In this document: piece by piece, positions 1,862 to 64,000 of the stretch
Layout of the letters: the number at the start of each line of letters is the position of its first letter
How positions within the stretch are numbered: position 1 is the stretch's first letter
DNA from: Spirochaetaceae bacterium
GTDB lineage: Bacteria > Spirochaetota > Spirochaetia > Treponematales > Rectinemataceae
Direction: 5' to 3'
DNA length: 64,000 nucleotides
Assembly (NCBI GenBank): GCA_025358255.1
Contig: JANYKC010000002.1
Location: forward strand, 1 to 64,000
The notes under the pieces: generated by a model
Database searches by the model: none
What the model was told of the DNA's origin: nothing
Seen by the model: only the letters and a program-made list of their open reading frames with translations
Translations under genes and position numbers: made by a program

Positions 1862-5200
<3,339 letters not shown>

Positions 5201-5220: not shown

Positions 5221-6414
5221 TTGGATTCTTCCTCAGCCAAGGGGTCGCGCGACTTCCGGCTCTTCCTCATCGCCAGCGTCCTCATGGGCCTCGGCGCCTG
5301 TGTCAACGCCTCCGCCTTCAACAACTACCTGAAGGACGTGTTCCAGCTCGATGTCGCGCATCGCACCTTCCTCGAGCTGCCCAGGGAGCTCCCTGGCTTC
5401 CTCGTCAGCCTCTTCGTGGGAATCCTGGCGGCGATAGGCGAGCTCCGGATCGCCATGGTGGCGGGCCTCGTGGCCAGCGCGGGCATGCTCGCCCTCGGCT
5501 GGATACCCTCCTCCTTCGTCCTCATGGTCTCCTCGGTCTTCGTGTACAGCACGGGTACCCACGTCTACATGCCACTGGCCAATTCCATCGGCATGGGCTT
5601 CGCGGCCGAAGGCAAGGAAGGAAAGCTCCTCGGGCGGGTGAACGCCACGATGACGGCCGCGGTGCTGGGCGGCTCAGCGCTCTTCTATATCCTCCTGAAG
5701 CTCGTCCATCCCGGCTACAAGGTGATCTTCTCCGTGGGCGCGGCCTTCTACCTTGGATCGGCGATCGCCCTCATGCTGATGAAGCCCCACCCCCATGCCC
5801 AGCTGCCGCGCAAGTTCGTGGTCAGGAAGGAGTACGGCCGCTACTACTTCCTCTCGATCCTCTTCGGCGCCCGCAAGCAGCTCTTCATTACCTTCGGACC
5901 CTGGATGATCGTCGCCTACTTCGGGAAGGGCGTGGAGGTGATGACCCTCCTCTTTTTCATCATCTCGGCAGTGGGCATCGTCGCCGGCCCCCTCGTGGGC
6001 AAGCTCACGGACAAGTGCGGCCCGCGGGCGGTGCTGGGCGGCGAGGCATTGCTCATTGTCCTCGTCTGCATCGCCTACGCCTTCGCGCCCGAGCTCCTTC
6101 CGGCGGCAGCAGCCTTCATAGTTGTGTCCATATGCTACGTGCTCGACCAGAGCTCCAACGCAGTCTCCATGACGAGGGCGGTCTACGTGAAGCGCATCGC
6201 CGTCGACCCGGGCGACGTCTCCCCCACCCTGTCCCTGGGCATCAGCATCGACCACGCCGTGTCGATGTTCCTTCCCATGCTCGGAGGACTGGCCTTCGCC
6301 ACCGGAGGCTCGCGCGGCTACAAGTGGGTATTCCTGGGCGGCGCGGCCATCTCGGCGGTCAACTTCCTCGTGACGCGGGGGATGCCGGACGGGAGGAAGA
6401 TCGACCGGATATAG
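5221..6414 (+). CDS. MFS transporter
   Basis: 397 residues with about twelve hydrophobic segments and cytoplasmic loops rich in Lys/Arg, typical of the major facilitator superfamily. TTG at 5221 is the likely start: AGCAGGAG lies about seven bases upstream and the ileS stop is only 20 bases away, suggesting co-transcription. Substrate cannot be told from sequence. The last 33 codons (from the GYKWVF segment to the stop) are duplicated at 11204-11302, where they stand alone as a remnant, so this gene was one edge of a segmental duplication. Confidence 0.85.
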   Translation: MDSSSAKGSRDFRLFLIASVLMGLGACVNASAFNNYLKDVFQLDVAHRTFLELPRELPGFLVSLFVGILAAIGELRIAMVAGLVASAGMLALGWIPSSFVLMVSSVFVYSTGTHVYMPLANSIGMGFAAEGKEGKLLGRVNATMTAAVLGGSALFYILLKLVHPGYKVIFSVGAAFYLGSAIALMLMKPHPHAQLPRKFVVRKEYGRYYFLSILFGARKQLFITFGPWMIVAYFGKGVEVMTLLFFIISAVGIVAGPLVGKLTDKCGPRAVLGGEALLIVLVCIAYAFAPELLPAAAAFIVVSICYVLDQSSNAVSMTRAVYVKRIAVDPGDVSPTLSLGISIDHAVSMFLPMLGGLAFATGGSRGYKWVFLGGAAISAVNFLVTRGMPDGRKIDRI

Positions 6415-6421
6415 CCTGCAC

Positions 6422-6458
6422 AAAAAAAGCGCGATGCCGAAAATGTCGGACATCGCGC
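6422..6458 (-). terminator. rho-independent terminator for the leftward outer-membrane protein gene
   Basis: Stem GCGCGATG/CATCGCGC with an inner CCGA/TCGG extension. The adjacent A7 run (6422-6428) becomes a U-tract for leftward transcription. An almost identical hairpin lies at 11312-11347 in copy B. Confidence 0.85.
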
Positions 6459-6489
6459 GAGCGGGCAGGCATCGGCGCAGAGTCAGCGC

Positions 6490-7212
6490 CTAGAGGACGA
6501 TTCCACCACCTACGACAAACTCGCAGTGCGTGAGGATAGAATCGATCCCGGTCGAAAATCCTTCGAAAAAATTGCGGTATTGGATGCCTGCATTGAGTGA
6601 GAGGAAAAGGACACGGGCTTCGATCCCCAGGTAGGCATTGGCGCCGATCATCGGGCTGGTATTCGCATAGTAGACAACATGTTTCCTGAACACGTCGATA
6701 TAGGCGAAATCGCTCCCAGGGTCAGTTCCCTTGCCGGGAAGGGTCCCCCCGTTTTTCCCCTCCTGAAAGAGAACCGACGGCCCGACAAGGCCGATGATCC
6801 TCAGGATCTTGAGATCAGTCGACCATCCGAAATTGAAGTCCATGATGCGTGCGCCGGAGAATCCATACTGTTTCCAGGTCGAGGACGGATCGCCGCTCGA
6901 CGGGCCATCCCCATTAAAAAGGTACGGACCGGTCCAATCGCTGTCGGAGCTACCATCATTCTTGTAATAATAGAGCATTTCTCCGGCATTCAGGTGCACG
7001 AACAACCCCATCGTCAAGCCCTTCCGCTTCCCTGCGAAAAGGTACCATGAAGGTATCGGAACGACCGTTGTGGCAGAGACATCGAAGTATGTGGCGTCCG
7101 TTCGCATGAAACCCGCGAATAGGCCTGCCTGGAGCCGGAATTCATCGCGCGACTGCGCGAAGGCGAGGAAGGAAATAGCCAAGAAGAGCGTAAGGAGGAT
7201 GGCTTTTTTCAT
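6490..7212 (-). CDS. exported outer-membrane-type protein (copy A)
   Basis: 240 residues from ATG 7212, preceded by TTGGAGACTTC as ribosome-binding site. The N-terminus is a signal peptide: MKKAILLTLFLAISFLAFAQ. The mature chain is rich in Tyr/Phe and Gly and alternates strands and turns (SWYLFAGKRKG, YLFNGDGPSS, FGWSTDLKILRIIGLVGPS), suggesting a small beta-barrel or surface protein. Bases 6490-8340 are visibly less GC-rich than the flanks. A decayed paralogue lies at 11379-12211. It follows the lipoprotein gene (7292-8340) with a stem-loop between. I do not recognise the family. Confidence 0.65.
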   Translation of the reverse strand: MKKAILLTLFLAISFLAFAQSRDEFRLQAGLFAGFMRTDATYFDVSATTVVPIPSWYLFAGKRKGLTMGLFVHLNAGEMLYYYKNDGSSDSDWTGPYLFNGDGPSSGDPSSTWKQYGFSGARIMDFNFGWSTDLKILRIIGLVGPSVLFQEGKNGGTLPGKGTDPGSDFAYIDVFRKHVVYYANTSPMIGANAYLGIEARVLFLSLNAGIQYRNFFEGFSTGIDSILTHCEFVVGGGIVL

Positions 7213-7248
7213 GAAGTCTCCAATGAATGCAAAAAATCGGCCGACAAA

Positions 7249-7278
7249 CCCGTCCCTTCGACGGATCGAAAGGACGGG
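7249..7278 (-). terminator. intercistronic stem-loop, possible attenuator
   Basis: Arms CCCGTCCCTTCGA and TCGAAAGGACGGG pair at 12 of 13 positions around a short loop. In the leftward direction a T-run follows about 13 bases later, just ahead of the outer-membrane protein gene. It could lower downstream expression or protect the 3' end of the lipoprotein message; it is not an ideal terminator because the T-run is displaced. Confidence 0.4.
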
Positions 7279-7291
7279 ACAAACAGGTTCT

Positions 7292-8340
7292 TTATTGATA
7301 CAGCCTGAAGTAGGTCTTGATTGTGCTACTTGTGGTTTGATCATTATCGTCAGTGAGATTGGATGTCGTCATGTAGATCGTGCTCGCGTTGGTGAGGCTT
7401 GCGAGTGTCAAATCGAGTAACTGGCCCATATCATCGTCTACGTACTTTTCTCCTGACTTTAGGCTAGGGTTGCTGACGAGCCCATCCCGATCGCGGAATT
7501 GGATGGTTATGAGTGTCGGGTTCGTGTCAGTGACATAAACTTGTCGTTTGGTAAAGGTCAAGTCTTCGGTTCTGTAGATGCTTCCACTTTTCAAGGAGGT
7601 TCCTGCGGGATTCATCACATTGCTGAAGGTCGTTCCCCCGGTGACCGTACCGGCAGTCATGGCACCCTCGACGATATGGCAGTAGATCTCGGGCAAGGGC
7701 TCATAAAAAGGATCCATAGTGTTCTGCGGGAATGTATAACTGACATAATCGACATAGAGCGTCGTACGAGTCCCCCGCGCCGAATTAGAGGTGCTCACAG
7801 GATCACCATCAATCGTCCCCCTGGCCACGACGATCACCGGGAAGTCCGGAGCCACCCATGCCGATATCGACACGACTTCTCCGGTATTCATGCGCACGTC
7901 GATGTTCGTGAATTCGTCGTTCTCGAGGGAAGGGGCGGTTCCCACGGCCCACTTCGTGACGAGCGAAAGATCGACCGTGGCTACGCCGGACTCGGCCGCC
8001 TCCGTTCCGGTAAAGCCCGGGAGGTAGAGAAAAGCCTCAATGGGCGTCGCCGCCAGGTCACGAGCCGCGTTCCCGTGGGGAAAAAGCGACCGCGAAACGG
8101 CACCTGCTTTGGCGGAGGTCAGGCTCAAGGTCTTCTCATGGGCATTGAAGGAGGAATAATCGCGGAAAGCATCCAACCCCGAGCCCTGCACCAAGGCGAA
8201 CAGGTCGTCAGCGAAGCCTCTTGCCGTGGCAAGATTCTCGACCACGGAGGTCGGTGTCGCCGAAGAGCTCACGTGGTTACAGGATGTGGCGAGGATCAGG
8301 CAGAGAGAAGCAGAGAGAAGCAGAGAGAAGTCCTTTTCAT
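7292..8340 (-). pseudogene. lipoprotein gene, signal peptide out of frame through a 10-bp repeat (possibly phase-variable)
   Basis: ATG 8340 has a ribosome-binding site (AGGAG eight bases upstream) and a strong promoter, but the downstream frame (326 codons from GTG 8272) is shifted. Between them lie three perfect copies of a 10-bp unit (8301-8330). With four copies, or one, ATG 8340 would be in frame, and with four the N-terminus becomes a textbook type II signal peptide ending in the lipobox LATSC. As read, translation from ATG stops after 14 codons. The body (SSSATPTSVVENLATARGF...) has no domain I recognise. I label it pseudogene for the allele shown; a reversible switch is the more interesting reading. 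A truncated copy is at 12218-12500. Confidence 0.65.
8301..8330. repeat. three perfect tandem 10-bp repeats inside a signal-peptide coding region
   Basis: Unit CAGAGAGAAG three times on the plus strand (GCTTCTCTCT-type unit on the coding strand). Because ten is not a multiple of three, each gain or loss changes the reading frame of the lipoprotein at 7292-8340. The corresponding stretch of copy B (around 12470-12490) lacks the repeat. Confidence 0.95.
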
Positions 8341-8369
8341 AATTCGAGCTCCTATTGAAATGATAGGGA

Positions 8370-8398
8370 ATAATATGTGCGCTTCATGAATCCGTCAA
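8370..8398 (-). promoter_or_regulatory. sigma70-type promoter of the lipoprotein/outer-membrane pair (copy A)
   Basis: On the minus strand: TTGACG (8398-8393), a 17-base spacer, then TATTAT (8375-8370), about 30 bases ahead of ATG 8340. The same arrangement, TTGACA-17-TATTGT, is kept in copy B at 12525-12553, which supports a real promoter. Confidence 0.75.
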
Positions 8399-8500
8399 GT
8401 ATTTTTTCCGGCCGCGCGGAGCTATGCGCTCCATGACCTCCTCCGGGGTCACGTGCTCGAAGCGGCATGCGTCCTTCTCCGCGCAGCCGGAGGGAGCCAC
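8393..8500 (-). pseudogene. dtxR 3'-end remnant
   Basis: The reverse strand matches, by eye, the C-terminal coding end of the intact DtxR gene at 12559-12918 (the region covering EKDACRIEHVISEETMARIALR). Similarity stops near 8500, which marks the duplication breakpoint. No start or helix-turn-helix part is present, so this is a non-functional fragment. Confidence 0.7.
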
Positions 8501-8535
8501 GATCACATGCGATTGCCAAGCAAGGACCAATAAAC

Positions 8536-8564
8536 TTGCTCAAACCGGGAATCGACACTATAGT
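8536..8564 (+). promoter_or_regulatory. sigma70-type promoter for the Cache/MCP genes
   Basis: TTGCTC (8536-8541), 17-base spacer, TATAGT (8559-8564), 19 bases ahead of the Cache gene ATG at 8583. Confidence 0.55.
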
Positions 8565-8582
8565 TGGCTCAAGAGGTGCACA

Positions 8583-9056
8583 ATGAAACGGACTTCCTTC
8601 ATCCTGATCGCCGCCTTCATAATTGCCATGAGCCTGGCCGCGCAGACGGGACCCGCCGCATCCAAGGCCAAGGCCCTCGTGGAGAGCGGTGTCGCCTTCT
8701 TCCAGAAAAACGGGCAGGCGGCCGCCTTCGCCGCCTTTGATGACGTGAAGGGCAAGTTCCGCGACGGGGAATACTATCTCTTCGTATTCGACATCTCCAA
8801 GCCGGATTCCGCCATCTGCGTCTCGCGGGGCGACGGCAACAGGGCCCTCATCGGCAAGGACATGTGGACAACCAAGGATCCTGATGGCCTTTTCTACATC
8901 CAGGCCTTCGCGGCGACGGTCGCGAAATCCGGATCAGGCTGGGTGGATTACAAGCGCACCAATCCCGAATCGAAGAAGATCGAGGCCAAGAGCTCCTATA
9001 TCACCATGATCCCGGGCACGAAGTTCTTCATCGGCTGCGGTTTCTACAAAGACTGA
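8583..9056 (+). CDS. periplasmic single-Cache (sCache_2-like) sensor protein
   Basis: 157 residues from ATG 8583 with GAGGTG upstream. [21 protein letters not shown] is a cleavable signal peptide. The rest is one Cache-type ligand-binding domain: YYLFVFDI strand, then the typical [19 protein letters not shown] and [14 protein letters not shown] segments, and a final [19 protein letters not shown]. There is no membrane anchor or output domain. The MCP gene starts 13 bases later, so the soluble Cache protein probably binds a small molecule in the periplasm and presents it to that receptor (inference). The pair lies in the segment inserted between the two duplication copies. Confidence 0.85.
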
Positions 9057-9069
9057 TGCGGAAGCCCTG

Positions 9070-10884
9070 ATGAGGACTGACATCGGCTTCTCCAGCGTCC
9101 GCACGAAGCTGGTCATCCTTTCCGGCTTGACCCTCGTTTCGCTCCTTGCGGCAGCTGCCTTGTTCCTCTTCTTCGGCATCGAGCAGCAAAGGAAGATCGA
9201 TCAGCTCGTCAACGAGGAGCTTCCAAGGATCGAAAACGTCCATGAGTTCTCTCGTTCCTTCCTCGTGACCCAGGCTTCGCTCTCTCAATTGCTGAACCGG
9301 AAAAACGCGGGAGGATTCAAGGACGCGCAGCTTACAAGCCTCGTGGAGCTTGTCGAAGCGGGCTTGAAGGAGTTGGCGGTCCGGGCGCCGGAACTTGCCA
9401 AGGACGGAACAGTGGATGAAGCCTCCAGGAAAGCCATTGCGGATTTCTCGGAAAACGTGCAAAGCAGCCTGGACAACCTCGCATTCGATCCTGCCTACGC
9501 GACGATGAGCGCTGACGCGGCCTGGGAAAGCTACGTCCTCGTGAATGCCTTCCTCGAGAAGAGCCTTGAGGTCATGCGGAAAGACCTGGATGGCTTGCGG
9601 CTGGACGCCGAAGTCGAGGCCCGGAAAGGAAGGCTCCTCCAGATTGCCATACTCATCGCGGCGGCCCTGGCCAACATCATCCTCTCCGTCTTCCTTTCGC
9701 GCCTGATCATGAAGCCGCTTCGCGCCGCAGGCGAAGCCTTGCGGGCCATCGCCGAGGGTGATTTTTCGCAGGACATCCCGAAGCTCAGGCAGAAGGACGA
9801 ATTCGGCCAGCTCCTCTCCGATGTGGCCGACCTCAAGGAAAGGATCGCCGCGATGGTGGCGAAGGTCAGGGACGAATCCGATCTTCTCCTCGGGATCGGC
9901 GAGGGCCTTTCCGCCAATATGGTGGAGACGGCGGCGGCCGTGGGCGCCATCACCGCCAATATCGCGGGCGTAAAGGACCAGTCGCTCACCCAGTCCGCCG
10001 GCGTGACGGAAACACATGCCACGGTGGACGAGATCGTCTCGGTCATCCGGAAGCTCAATGGCTACGTCGAGGACCAGTCCTCCTGCGTCGATGAATCCTC
10101 CGCCTCCATCGAGGAGATGGTCGCGAACATCAAGTCCGTAACCGAAATACTGCAGCGGAACGCGGTCTCCGTGGACAAGTTGCTCGCGGCCTCGGAGGAA
10201 GGAAGGAGCGGGATGGCCGACGTGAGCGGCCTTGTCGTGGACATGGCCAAGGAGTCGGAGGGGCTTTTGGAGGCGGGCGACATGATCCAGAAAGTCGCCA
10301 GCCAGACCAATCTCCTCGCCATGAACGCGGCGATAGAAGCGGCCCATGCGGGGGAATCCGGCAAAGGATTCGCGGTCGTCGCCGACGAGATCCGGAAACT
10401 TTCAGAGGACTCGGGCCAGCAAGGCAAGGAAATCACTTTCGTCCTGCAGAAGCTCAAGGCGTCCATCGACAAGATCACCACATCATCGGAAATCGCCGAA
10501 GCGCTGTTCGAGAACGTCTTCCGGCTGGCGAAGGTCGTCGCCGAGCAGGAGGCGATCATCAACAACGCCATGACCGAGCAGAATACCGGCGGCGGGGAGA
10601 TCCTCCTGGCGATCGGGCAGATCAACACGACGACGAGCCAGGTCAAGGATGGATCGGCGCAGATGCTTGCGGGAAGCCGCGAAGTGCTCGATGAGATGAA
10701 CAGGCTCTCGGACGCGACGCGCATGATCACCGACCGCATGACCGAGATGTCAGCAGGCGCGGGCCAGATCGAAAACGCGATCGGTCATGTCGGGAGCTTG
10801 AGCAGGGACAACAAGGACGGCCTTGACCTGCTGAAGCGGGAACTGTCCTGGTTCAAGCTCGCCAAGGCCGGGACCGAAGGCTGA
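9070..10884 (+). CDS. methyl-accepting chemotaxis protein
   Basis: 604 residues. One membrane helix at ~13-36, a periplasmic helical domain of about 150 residues, a second helix at ~190-212, a HAMP linker ([19 protein letters not shown]), then a long coiled-coil signalling domain. The conserved hairpin tip that binds CheA/CheW is clear at ~405-445 ([29 protein letters not shown] is split here as [19 protein letters not shown] and [12 protein letters not shown]). No C-terminal NWETF-type tether is present. Co-transcribed with the upstream secreted Cache protein, its likely ligand-binding partner. Confidence 0.95.
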
Positions 10885-10901
10885 TCGGCCGAAAACAAAC
10901 C

Positions 10902-11201
10902 CTAGCCTTGGGGGGCGCCATCCTTGTTCCCTGAGGCGAAGGAAACAAGGGCCGCCTCGATGGTCGCGAAGGTCTCGAAGACCCGGTCCAGCCGGGTGAG
11001 CGAAAAGACCTGGGAGACCTGGGGCACGAGGCAGGCCAGCTTGAGGCTCCCTCCTGCCTCGACCGCCGCTTTGTAGCCTGCCACAAAGGCCGCGAGCCCC
11101 GAGCTGTCGATGAAGGCGAGTTCCCCGAGGTCGAGGACAAGGTTGTGGGATGTCTCCTTGACGATGGACTTGAGCCGATCCTTCGCCTCGGGAGCGCTCA
11201 A
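10902..11201 (-). pseudogene. STAS-domain anti-sigma-factor antagonist, N-terminally truncated
   Basis: The chain SAPEAKDRLKSIVKETSHNLVLDLGELAFIDSSGLAAF is the middle of a SpoIIAA-like STAS domain, with the phosphorylatable Ser in the IDSSG motif, followed by the rest of the fold. A normal member has ~25-30 more residues ahead of it (first strand and the GRLDA turn). Those are missing: the only start is a TTG at 11201, and the next bases already belong to the duplicated MFS fragment. The gene was cut at the duplication junction. It converges with the MCP gene. Some residual function from the TTG cannot be excluded. Confidence 0.7.
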
Positions 11202-11203
11202 GG

Positions 11204-11302
11204 GGCTACAAGTGGGTATTCATAGGCGGCGCGCTCATCTCGGCGGCCAACTTCATCGTGACGCGGGGGATGCCGGACGGGAGCAAGATCGACCGGGTCT
11301 AG
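11204..11302 (+). pseudogene. MFS transporter 3'-end remnant
   Basis: 33 codons, starting at GGCTACAAG and reading GYKWVFIGGALISAANFIV and so on to IDRV and a stop. This is the same sequence, with a few changes, as the last 33 codons of the MFS gene ending at 6414. There is no start or upstream part; it directly abuts the truncated STAS gene. Confidence 0.9.
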
Positions 11303-11311
11303 AGTGCGCAT

Positions 11312-11347
11312 AAAAAGGCGCGATGCCGAAGCATTCGGACATCGCGC
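11312..11347 (-). terminator. rho-independent terminator (copy B)
   Basis: GCGCGATG/CATCGCGC stem with inner CCGAA/TTCGG and an A5 run that gives a U-tract leftward. It is the duplicate of the hairpin at 6422-6458. Confidence 0.8.
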
Positions 11348-11378
11348 TTGCTCACCTGCGCCTGCGAACGGCTGGTTC

Positions 11379-12211
11379 CTAGAGGATGATCCCGACGCCG
11401 ACAACGAGTTCGCAACGATTGAAAAATCGGTCTACTGACCCGGCAACATAACATCGGGCGCTCTCCCATGATTCTGGCCCGTCGCTACGGGTCAGAATCA
11501 TGGTCCCAAGCCAATGTTCGGTTGCCGGGTCAGTAAGCTGCTAAAGGGGACATGATCTCCCAGGTTCCGGTATCTGACTCCAACATTCAACGACAGGAAA
11601 AGAACTTGAGTTTCGATCCCAACATATGCATTGCCTCCGATCCCCAGGCCAGTCGAAGGATAGAAGGCGACATGCTTCCTGAACTCCTCATCGTAGGCAA
11701 ACACGCCGGTGGTATCGCTTCCTTTTCCGTTGCCTCCGCTCAAGCCATTTCGGAAGAAAAACGATGGACCGATGAGGCCAACAAGCCGGAGGGCTTTCAG
11801 GTCTGTGGACCAACCGAAGGAAAAATCGACGATGTTCCCCGAAGAAAAGCCGTATTGCTTCCAGGGTCCGGTCCCATAGATCGTAGCCGGCGTGTCTCCA
11901 TTGAAATAGCACGGACCCGACCAATCGGTGACCGCGCCTCCATCGTTCTGGTAATAGCAAAGAACGGCACCGGCATTTATGTAGGCAAAAATGCCCATCA
12001 CAAGGCCTTGCCTTTTCCCCGCGATGAGATAGTACGAGGGCGTTGGAACGCTGCCATCGCCTCCTACATCGAAGCAGACATGCTCCACTCTTGAAAACGA
12101 GGCCATTAGCCCAGCCTGGACCATCGCCTCATCCTTCGCGATATCGCTCATGCGCGTCCTCAATTGCGCTGGGGACCCAACTACCCAATTCAGCTCAAGG
12201 CGCGGAATCAT
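11379..12211 (-). pseudogene. outer-membrane-type protein, copy B, interrupted by a MITE
   Basis: The frame from ~12170 leftward (VQAGLMASFSRVEH..., PSYYLIAGKRQG, FGWSTDLKALRLVGLIGPS) is clearly the paralogue of the protein at 6490-7212. Two lesions are visible. First, the signal peptide is gone: upstream of KDEAMVQAGL the sequence no longer resembles copy A. Second, a 99-bp inverted-repeat element at 11435-11533 adds a premature stop. Removing that element plus one TA rejoins PFSSL to DRFFNRCELVVGVGIIL and the stop at 11379, matching the copy A C-terminus. Not expected to make an exported protein. Confidence 0.8.
11433..11535. mobile_element. 99-bp MITE with TA target duplication (IS630/Tc1-mariner type)
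   Basis: Terminal inverted repeats CTGACCCGGCAAC...GTTGCCGGGTCAG (11435 on, to 11533) are perfect over 13 bases and extend imperfectly. TA flanks both ends (11433-11434 and 11534-11535). The interior is a second perfect-looking inverted repeat (CCATGATTCTG/CAGAATCATGG). There is no coding capacity. TA duplication is the hallmark of the IS630/Tc1-mariner superfamily; the parent transposase is not in this window. Confidence 0.85.
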
Positions 12212-12217
12212 CAGTCA

Positions 12218-12500
12218 TGAATCCGGAATTCAGTTCCATTCGTAGCGCTTTTCGTGAAGGCATTGTCATCATCATTGGCGGCGGTCAGGCTCCAGGTCTT
12301 CTCATGGGCATTGAAGGAGGAGCAACCACGAAAGGCTTCCAACCCGAGCTCTGCACCAAGGCAAACGGGTCGTCAGCGAAGCCCCTTGCCGTGGCAAGAT
12401 TCTCGACCGCAGGGGTTGATGTCGCCGAATAGCTCACGTGGTTACAGGATGTGGCGAGGATCAGGCAGAAAACAGCAGGAAGACGTTCTTTTCAAAATGA
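12218..12500 (-). pseudogene. lipoprotein remnant, copy B
   Basis: On the minus strand this matches the first ~80 codons of the lipoprotein at 7292-8340 (LATSCNHV, then VENLATARGFADD, ALVQ, FNAHEKT in a shifted frame). A frameshift after LVQSSG and deletion of the remaining ~250 codons make it non-functional. The 10-bp repeat of copy A is absent here. Confidence 0.75.
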
Positions 12501-12524
12501 GGGCTCCTATTGAAATGACAGGGA

Positions 12525-12553
12525 ACAATAGGGGCTTTTCGCACTGCTGTCAA
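12525..12553 (-). promoter_or_regulatory. sigma70-type promoter ahead of the copy B lipoprotein remnant
   Basis: TTGACA (12553-12548), 17-base spacer, TATTGT (12530-12525) on the minus strand. It begins a few bases past the DtxR stop codon and is conserved with 8370-8398. Confidence 0.7.
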
Positions 12554-12558
12554 GTTTT

Positions 12559-12918
12559 TCATCGGCGGCAGCGCAGCGCGATGCGCGCCATCGTCTCCTC
12601 CGAGATCACGTGCTCGATGCGGCAGGCGTCCTTCTCCGCGATGTCGGGAGGGACGCCAAGGTCGTCGCGGAGGAAGGCGGTCAGTGTGTAGTGGCGTTCC
12701 CGGATGGCGGCCGAGGCCTCCTTTCCCGCAGGGGTAAGGAAGACCTCGCCGTAGCTTTCGTGCTGGATGAAGCCCCTGCGCTCGAGCTCGTGGAGGGCCA
12801 CGTGGACCGAGGGCTTGGAGACCGAGAGCGACTTCGCGATGTCGGTCACCCGGGTGACGCGGTTCTTCTCGTGAAGCAGGCTGATGGTCTCGAGGTACAT
12901 CTCCAGGCTTTCGGTCAC
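12559..12918 (-). CDS. DtxR/MntR-family metal-dependent regulator
   Basis: 119 residues. An N-terminal winged helix (ESLEMYLETISLLHEKNRVTRVTDIAKSLSVSKPSVHVALHEL, residues ~3-46) is followed by the dimerisation/metal-binding part with the family's RHYTLTAFL and DACRIEHVIS segments. The SH3-like C-terminal domain is lacking, as in MntR/IdeR-short types. These proteins repress metal-uptake genes when bound to Fe or Mn. GTG start at 12918 overlaps the TGA of the upstream lipoprotein gene (GTGA), so the two are translationally coupled. Its original downstream neighbours were the lipoprotein and outer-membrane gene, which makes them candidate targets. Confidence 0.92.
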   Translation of the reverse strand: MTESLEMYLETISLLHEKNRVTRVTDIAKSLSVSKPSVHVALHELERRGFIQHESYGEVFLTPAGKEASAAIRERHYTLTAFLRDDLGVPPDIAEKDACRIEHVISEETMARIALRCRR

Positions 12919-30032: not shown

Positions 30033-31732
30033 AGCTTCAGCCGACGATTGCCCATTGCCTGGATTTCGGCGGACAGGAAACCTGGCCGCGCCTCGACCTA
30101 CCCCCGGATCGGGAAAACGGCGTCGGCGCCGCCGTCCTCGAAACCCTGGCCCGCGTCGCCTTCGAGGAGATCGCCTTTTTCCTCCCCACTTCCCAGCTAG
30201 AGGGTTTCGCTGCCGTCCTCAAGGACCCGGGCGCAGGCGAGGCCGAACGCTTTGTCGCGGCGAGCCTCATCCGCAACGCCATCATCGCGGCGGAGGGCGT
30301 CTATCCCCTGTGCCAGGACACGGGCACCGCGGTCGTCTATGGATGGAGGGGATCGGGCTTCGCAAGCGCGACCTGCGATGAGGAGGAGGCCTTGGCCCGT
30401 GGGGTGCGGGCGGCCTACGCCGCCCGCAGGCTCAGGGCCTCGGTCCTCCGGCCCACCGGCTTCCTTTCCGAGGCAAACGCGGGGGACAACCTTCCCCTCC
30501 ATTGCGACATCAGGACCGACTACAGCGGCGAGGGCGCCGGCGGCGAAGGCGCCGGCGGCGAGGGCGCCGGCGGCGAGGGCGCCAGCGGCGAGGGCGCCGG
30601 CGGCGTGGGCGCCGGCGGCGAGGGCGCCGGCGGCGAGGCCTTCCGGCTCTGCTTCGTGGCCAAGGGAGGCGGCTCCGCCAACCGCACGAGCCTTGCCATG
30701 GAATCACCCTCCCTCCTCGACGCAGGCCTGCTCGAAAGGAGGCTTGATGGCCTTGTGAGGGGGCTCGGCACCTCGGGCTGCCCTCCGTATCGCATAACCT
30801 GTGTAGTGGGTGGCCTTTCCCCCGAGGAGAGCCTCTATGTCCTGGCGCTGGCGGGCCTGGGCCTCCTCGATGGCTTGCCTGCGGCCTCCGCGGGCGGGTC
30901 CCCGGCCCTCCGCGACCGCGGGTGGGAAGAGGCGATGCTCAGCTCGGCTGCCGCCGCAGGCCCAGGCGCCCAGTTCGGGGGGAGCCGGCTGGCCATCGAT
31001 GCCCGCGCGATCCGCCTCCCGCGCCACGCCGCGAGCCTCCCCCTAGCCTTCGGGGTCAGCTGCGCCGCGGCCCGTCGGGCACGGGCCTTTATCGACAAGG
31101 AGGGAGTCAGGCTCGAGCCGATGGAAAAGGACCCGGCCCGGTTCCTGCCTGACGGGATGCCCGCCCTCGATGGCGCACAACGCGTCAATCTCGACAGGCC
31201 GGCAAGCGAGCTTGCCGCCGAGCTCGGCGCCCTCCCCCCCGGCACGCCCCTCCTCATCTCGGGAACGGTGGTCACTGCCCGCGACAAGGCCCATGCCCGG
31301 TTCCGCGCCCTTGTCGCCGAGGGCAAGGACCTTCCGGCCTGCATTTTCCGCCATCCGGTGTTCTATGCCGGCCCCACCGACGCGGTGCCCGGAGCGGTAT
31401 CCGGCTCCTTCGGCCCGACGACGGCAGGCCGCATGGATTCCATGCTCCCCGAACTCCTTTCGCGGGGCGCGAGCCTCGTGACCATCGCCAAGGGATCCAG
31501 GTCCCCTTCCGCGGCCAGGTCGATCGCGGAGCATGGCGGGGTCTACCTTTGCGCCATCGGAGGCGCGGCAGCCCTCGCGGCCAAGGAGAATGTGGTCTCC
31601 AGCCGCATCATAGCCTGGCCGGAACTCGGCATGGAGGCGCTTCGCCTGGTCGAACTGCGGGACCTCCCGGCCATCATCGGCATCAACGGCGAGGGCCGGG
31701 ACTTCTACGCCGAATGCGGGGCGGCTCGATGA
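30029..31732 (+). CDS. class I (4Fe-4S) fumarate hydratase with a Gly-Glu-Ala repeat insert
   Basis: 567 residues from ATG 30029 (GTG 30023, closer to AGGAAG, is an alternative). Interconverts fumarate and malate. The three cluster cysteines are recognisable: YPLCQDTG (~95), TSGCPPYR (~250) and GVSCAAAR (~344). Alpha and beta parts are fused, as in FumA/FumB: GGGSANRT and SFGPTTAGRMDS are conserved. Seven 15-bp units (30527-30631) encode a (GEGAG)n stretch at ~167-201, between DIRTDYS and EAFRLCFVAKGG, inside the catalytic part; normal members lack it. The MFS gene overlaps its stop by ATGA. Confidence 0.93.
   Translation: MKLQPTIAHCLDFGGQETWPRLDLPPDRENGVGAAVLETLARVAFEEIAFFLPTSQLEGFAAVLKDPGAGEAERFVAASLIRNAIIAAEGVYPLCQDTGTAVVYGWRGSGFASATCDEEEALARGVRAAYAARRLRASVLRPTGFLSEANAGDNLPLHCDIRTDYSGEGAGGEGAGGEGAGGEGASGEGAGGVGAGGEGAGGEAFRLCFVAKGGGSANRTSLAMESPSLLDAGLLERRLDGLVRGLGTSGCPPYRITCVVGGLSPEESLYVLALAGLGLLDGLPAASAGGSPALRDRGWEEAMLSSAAAAGPGAQFGGSRLAIDARAIRLPRHAASLPLAFGVSCAAARRARAFIDKEGVRLEPMEKDPARFLPDGMPALDGAQRVNLDRPASELAAELGALPPGTPLLISGTVVTARDKAHARFRALVAEGKDLPACIFRHPVFYAGPTDAVPGAVSGSFGPTTAGRMDSMLPELLSRGASLVTIAKGSRSPSAARSIAEHGGVYLCAIGGAAALAAKENVVSSRIIAWPELGMEALRLVELRDLPAIIGINGEGRDFYAECGAAR
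30527..30631. repeat. seven tandem 15-bp repeats in the fumarase gene
   Basis: Unit GGCGAGGGCGCCGGC, seven copies with four single-base changes (GAA, AGC, GTG variants). In frame, so length changes keep translation. Confidence 0.95.
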
Positions 31733-63350: not shown

Positions 63351-63427
63351 CCGGGTCCGCGCCGGGTCCGCCCCGGGTCCGCGCCGGGTCCGCCCCGGGT
63401 CCGCCCCGGGTCCGCCCCGGGTCCGCC
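63351..63427. repeat. seven tandem 11-bp repeats between the kinase and phosphofructokinase genes
   Basis: Unit CCGGGTCCGC(G/C), seven copies, in the divergent intergenic region. Eleven bases is about one helical turn, so protein sites on one face of the DNA are possible. Confidence 0.95.
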
Positions 63428-63497
63428 CCCGCCGGACGCGCATTGCCGCGGGCCAAGAGCTCCGCTATACTCTGTCAGAAAGAGCGAGGTTTGAGCG

Positions 63498-64000
63498 ATG
63501 GACACAAAACTGGATTTCACCGTGTCGACCCTGGGCGAGTGCACCATACCTTCACCCATCCGGCTTTCCGCCATTCAGGGAGAGCGCGTGGCCAACTATG
63601 TCCGCGATGACGAGTTCGTCCGCTACGAGACCGATGCGAAGGCCGGCCCCCAGCCCAGGCTCGATGCCGGCCAGCTCCTCCAGAAGGCGGGACCGCGCGA
63701 AAAGATCTATTTCGGGCCCAGCCACGTCCATGCGGGCATCGTCACCTGCGGAGGACTCTGCCCCGGCCTCAACGACGTGATCCGCTCCATCGTGCGTTGC
63801 CTGTGGTACCGCTATGGGGTCCGCCGGATAACCGGCATCCGCTATGGCTACAAGGGCCTGCTTCCCGACTACAACATCGACGTGAAGGACCTTGGGCCGG
63901 ATGTCGTGGACGACATCCACAAAATGGGCGGCACCATCCTGGGCTCCTCACGGGGCGGCGGGGAAAGGACCGGGGAGATCGTGGACGCGATCGAACGGCT
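63498..64000 (+). CDS. 6-phosphofructokinase (3' partial)
   Basis: ATG 63498 opens a frame that runs off the window after 167 codons. The segment [20 protein letters not shown] followed by [13 protein letters not shown] and [12 protein letters not shown] is the N-terminal half of the PFK fold of the plant/spirochaete long type, preceded by the usual ~75-residue extension. It phosphorylates fructose-6-phosphate. The residue that tells ATP from pyrophosphate enzymes lies beyond the window, so the donor cannot be called. Confidence 0.93.

Follow-up and report, generated by a model that had tools for sequence, protein, structure and literature searches.

A 10-bp tandem repeat among the signal-peptide codons of an orphan spirochaete lipoprotein gene: possible recent inactivation or phase-variation switch

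In a window of 64,000 nucleotides from the genome of a Spirochaetaceae bacterium (contig JANYKC010000002.1, positions 1 to 64,000), a 10-bp tandem repeat at the start of a lipoprotein gene places the body of the gene out of frame with its start codon. The explanation that we rank first, with about an even chance of being right, is that a recent slippage frameshift inactivated this gene, which belongs to a lineage-specific, duplicated and decaying cassette. On this view, the array is prone to slippage and lies among the signal-peptide codons of an orphan lipoprotein gene. The sequence shows that, at its present length, translation from the ATG ends after 14 residues, so that the lipoprotein should not be made. 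The gain or loss of a unit would have only just inactivated the gene, the sister copy having already decayed. The frame break is probably recent, since there are no differences among the three units and the body remains open. Another change in unit number would reopen the frame, so that reversion is possible in principle.

Results

Repeat array and reading frame

The array lies at positions 8300–8330 on the minus strand, within the signal-peptide coding region. TRF reported 3.1 copies of a period of 10 (unit GCTTCTCTCT in minus-strand reading) with 100% match, covering bases 11–41 of the coding sequence counted from the ATG at 8340. The 20-base double unit occurs a single time across the whole genome, and 100 shuffled versions of the window contained no match to it. 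The ORF read from ATG 8340 (8296–8340, minus strand) encodes 14 residues, MKRTSLCFSLLLSA, followed by a TGA stop codon. The lipoprotein body, from the Cys of the candidate lipobox to the stop codon (7292–8281, minus strand), consists of 329 open codons in another frame and begins with CNHVSSS, its Cys being encoded at 8281. Both TRF and translation bear out the sequence-only reading, according to which ATG 8340 and the body are in different frames when three copies are present. No ATG, GTG or TTG codon was found in the body frame between the preceding stop codon and GTG 8272.

The ATG and the CTG codon of LILATSC are 41 nt apart, and the two frames join only at multiples of three, such as 51 nt (four units) or 21 nt (one unit). 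The array is situated in the hydrophobic core of the signal peptide and is free of stop codons in all three frames. As in SSR contingency loci, the tandem unit inside the reading frame has a length that is not a multiple of three, and the downstream ORF is intact over 329 codons and would be rescued by a change in unit number. The earlier point about restoration by one or four copies is arithmetically true. However, it provides no independent evidence for a switch, because any unit whose length is not a multiple of three must behave in this way once the frame is right at some n = 1 mod 3.

Expression signals and signal peptide

ATG 8340 had also been credited with a good ribosome site and promoter, and both are indeed present on the minus strand: the ribosome-binding site AGGAG (8349–8353) is 8 nt upstream of the ATG and is kept in the aligned paralogue, and a sigma-70-like promoter, TTGACG-17-TATTAT (8370–8398), has the paralogous version TTGACA-17-TATTGT.

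Four units would place the lipobox Cys at residue 24, after a signal peptide of 23 residues, and with one unit the signal peptide would have an unusually short 13 residues. In a small sample of 13 lipoprotein candidates picked by a simple rule from the sampled part of the genome, 17 to 32 residues precede the Cys (median 21), and none of the candidates has 13. The A-T-S-C lipobox fits a loose PROSITE-type pattern and fails the strict pattern [LVI][ASTVI][GAS]C; an A at position -3 is shared by three of the 13 candidates. The four-unit signal peptide (LATSC), described as textbook in the sequence-only reading, is therefore of normal length and acceptable under the loose pattern, but the epithet does not hold under the strict one. 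At three units the encoded N-terminus contains no lipobox, and at four units it would contain one. Either four units represent the natural ON state, or the ancestral sequence at this place was somewhat different (the paralogue has 31 nt for 41). Since one unit gives only 13 residues, a working ancestor may already have carried an array.

Searches for relatives and alleles

The lipoprotein body had no match in Pfam, NCBIfam or PHROGs and nothing significant among PDB sequences, and its predicted structure was unusable (mean pLDDT 32). No relative of the body was found in GTDB r220, IMG/VR or plasmids, and no relative or orthologue with another number of units was found in 58 related genomes, 29 genomes of the family or 295 genomes of the phylum. 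The same 30-base array was absent from the 295 other genomes of the phylum, and no second allele of the locus was detected in the other contigs of the source genome. Several weak matches (L004–L008, L012 and L015; E 0.001–0.4 per genome) were judged to be due to chance; the best of them, L012, lies inside an unrelated-looking hydrolase-like gene. Length variation was thus seen only in a pseudogene paralogue, which is ten bases shorter, with no orthologue or second allele found. As an orphan with one degraded paralogue, the gene does not form a cluster of at least five homologous frameshifted genes with repeats, which is the GeneTack criterion for phase variation.

Genomic setting

The array lies in an island bordered by a gene for an MFS transporter (5221–6414, plus strand) and a gene for an intact DtxR/Fe-dependent repressor (12559–12918, minus strand). 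In three relatives (G001, G002 and G003), the DtxR-type regulator and the MFS transporter are convergent neighbours separated by 104–520 bp; in the source genome they are separated by 6 kb (6415–12558). The island contains the lipoprotein gene and its companion gene (copy 1), a cache/MCP/STAS group, and a degraded second copy of the lipoprotein gene with a copy of the companion gene. Remnants of the DtxR and MFS genes are present at the inner borders of the island. One of them, the 3′ end of a DtxR-type regulator (8384–8530, minus strand), lies upstream of the lipoprotein promoter and is homologous to the 3′ end of the intact gene at 12559–12918. The G+C content of the lipoprotein and companion genes is 54–55% (64% for the window), and their GC3 is 0.61–0.67 against 0.82–0.90 in the neighbours. 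The cassette appears to have been acquired and then duplicated. Genes for a cache-domain protein, an MCP and a STAS protein lie between the two cassette copies (8424–11201), and the relatives lack them at that place. In the same-genus relative G001, an ATTC tetranucleotide run (contig C11, L025, about 3998–4026) lies between the DtxR and MFS genes, that is, at the intergenic site of the island.

The companion gene (6490–7212, minus strand) starts 80 nt past the lipoprotein stop codon and encodes a signal-peptide protein of 240 aa (MKKAILLTLFLAISFLAFAQ...) of unassigned family, which is probably secreted or located in the outer membrane. Its AlphaFold model was unusable (mean pLDDT 29), and an alignment search of GTDB r220 found no relative. 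Its paralogue (11498–12211, minus strand) is 51% identical and has no signal peptide; dN/dS for the pair is about 0.1, with dS near saturation. Folding predicts a strong hairpin with a 13-bp stem in the stretch that separates the companion gene from the lipoprotein body (7249–7278, minus strand). The 96-nt stretch that contains it has a folding energy of -28.2 kcal/mol (z -2.0). This hairpin is unique in the genome, has no T run close by, and is possibly an attenuator or weak terminator. The stop after 14 codons could lower the expression of the companion gene through polarity.

Degraded sister copy

The paralogous lipoprotein gene, 4 kb away, is a pseudogene. Its start region (12274–12495, minus strand; TTG start) is out of frame in the alignment. 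The array there consists of two diverged units and is ten bases shorter, the frame is broken at this place, and the gene also has a 1-nt deletion in the body and lacks its C-terminal three quarters. Inactivating lesions are present in both recognisable copies, a frame break in the signal-peptide region of copy 1 and several lesions in copy 2. The two copies could be aligned over 380 bases with 82% identity (distance 0.20). They share the promoter spacing and show strong conservation of the promoter, the ribosome site and the lipobox region, and about 39 bases on the 3′ side of the array are identical. The dN/dS ratio of the pair was 0.54 (95% bootstrap interval 0.25–1.2), calculated over 65 codons.

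Neutral evolution of the copy 1 body was simulated over half the distance between the copies (a branch of about 0.1). The body stayed free of stop codons in 13–22% of the simulations, and free of both stop codons and frameshifts in about 1–3% or fewer at a low indel rate. This low survival suggests that the copy 1 gene was kept until recently. Selection probably maintained the body for most of that time, the frame break being younger or a reversible state; the simulation is based on assumed rates and does not distinguish a recent break from a reversible state.

Other arrays in the genome

In a 715-kb sample (17% of the genome), nine perfect arrays with at least 2.9 copies and units of 6–30 bp were found. 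Three Markov simulations of the same size yielded one array in total, with a 6-bp unit. The array is real and rare. In four of the nine the unit length is not a multiple of three, namely the present array, an 11-bp array at 63384–63429 of the window, a 13-bp array in locus L061 and a 7-bp array in locus L048. The 13-bp array (about six copies, contig C7, L061 18109–18188) is the only other one that breaks a frame. It lies inside a remnant of a lacI-family gene, upstream of a sugar-kinase-like gene; in this remnant, a stop codon occurs early and the C-terminus is missing. The array puts the two halves of the lacI gene in different frames and shows a 39-bp higher-order pattern. No further locus of the contingency type was found in the sample, the other arrays with such units being in the dead lacI gene or outside clear genes. 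A scan for frame breaks by two-copy duplications flagged only L068 6558–6573, which proved to be an ordinary gene junction.

Two further repeats were seen in the window. About seven 11-bp units (CCGGGTCCGCC, 95% match) occupy the intergenic stretch 63351–63429, flanked on one side by a divergent sensor histidine kinase gene and on the other by a phosphofructokinase-like gene at 63498, and this array could tune expression from a shared promoter region. A 15-bp unit (GCGGCGAGGGCGCCG) is repeated 7.6 times at 30525–30638, and its length keeps the frame.

Discussion

Inactivation or reversible switching

We place inactivation by decay first for several reasons: this is an orphan gene with a dead sister copy, its array comprises no more than three units, the genome sample contains no family of similar loci, and the other frame-breaking array is in a lacI remnant. 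Under every explanation except an assembly error, the array probably changed its length by slippage. Some observations fit inactivation less well: a stop-free array in the hydrophobic core, together with a normal signal peptide at four units, exceeds what a random inactivating indel needs, promoter, ribosome site and lipobox are strongly conserved between the copies, and the intact body also fits a switch that is merely OFF.

A true contingency locus, with reversible slippage leaving the lipoprotein OFF at two or three units and ON at four, is possible and ranks second, as less probable than inactivation. In the OFF state, polarity caused by the premature stop may reduce the expression of the downstream gene as well. 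The best argument for such a locus is that four units give a normal signal peptide length, typical for the genome, and one unit an unusually short one, which points to a long-standing array and hence to a switch. The layout of array and ORF matches that of an SSR contingency locus, the two copies differ in array length by exactly ten bases, and the body is still open. There are also precedents, as repeats occur in the leader-peptide coding sequence of Neisseria opa genes (PMC3745409), and SSR tracts within ORFs are an established type of ON/OFF switch (PMC11475388). However, longer tracts switch faster (PMC11475388) and this array has just three units; moreover, the searches gave neither a length variant nor an orthologue with the array, the sister copy is a pseudogene, and 17% of the genome contains no comparable locus. 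Under the GeneTack criteria, frameshifted genes that have no homologous cluster are not counted as phase-variable (PMC3711429). The sequence-only reading had proposed a phase-variation switch. The anatomy of a contingency locus and a plausible route by slippage speak for that proposal, but decay, considering the sister pseudogene and the array in the dead lacI gene, explains the facts at least as simply.

Two other explanations would leave the gene functional, and we consider both improbable. If the true number of units were four and the three-unit version an error of assembly or consensus, one extra unit would yield an ordinary lipoprotein; the genome is a draft of 99 contigs, and short tandem repeats can collapse. 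This is unlikely, as an array of 31 or 41 bp is far below the length of ordinary short reads, longer arrays were kept elsewhere in the assembly (about 6 × 13 bp and 7 × 11 bp), and the contigs hold no second version of the locus. It is slightly less likely still that the body is translated at three units by an unusual route, namely a CTG start within the array, re-initiation at GTG 8272 or ribosomal frameshifting. A CTG in the body frame, 7 nt after AAGGA, would open a short hydrophobic stretch before the lipobox, and the body has remained open, but CTG starts are rare and the resulting peptide would lack a positive n-region. A start at GTG 8272, a codon that lacks a ribosome site, would yield no signal peptide, and the overlap of the frames contains no recognised slippery heptamer.

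If the locus does switch, the range of phase variation through the signal peptide, as known from opa, would widen to include a decamer unit and a bacterium with a genome of 4 Mb, and the surface lipoprotein would be marked as being under fluctuating selection. If recent inactivation is the whole explanation, the locus serves as a warning: a repeat at the start of an open frame whose unit length is not a multiple of three, together with rescue at one or four copies, is not in itself evidence for a switch.

Comparison with known systems

In Neisseria opa genes, the number of CTCTT pentamers in the leader-peptide coding sequence sets the reading frame (PMC3745409). The present locus likewise has a pyrimidine-rich repeat, with a unit not divisible by three, in the signal-peptide coding sequence of a surface protein, its position in the hydrophobic core is as in opa, and the number of units sets the frame. 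It differs from opa in that the unit has ten bases instead of five, there are just three units, the gene is a single orphan with a pseudogene sister, and no length variant was seen. Furthermore, the product would be a lipoprotein, and Opa is an outer-membrane barrel; there is no sequence relationship, and the mature protein matched no Pfam or NCBIfam family that would place it in the Opa family. We regard as rather doubtful, on balance, that an opa-type signal-peptide switch with a 10-base unit acts here on a lipoprotein (and perhaps on its neighbour through polarity) in a 4-Mb bacterium that does not resemble a small-genome pathogen.

The array in the lacI remnant is similar in that its unit is not divisible by three and the C-terminal part is shifted out of frame, but that remnant, unlike the lipoprotein gene, additionally carries an early stop and lacks its C-terminus. 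In the GeneTack study, singleton frameshifted genes were taken as indel mutations or errors and not as phase variation (PMC3711429). The lipoprotein gene resembles these singletons and pseudogenes in having no homologues, a frame broken by an indel and a degraded sister copy. Unlike them, its indel takes the form of a perfect multi-unit array, neatly placed with respect to function, in a gene that is otherwise intact.
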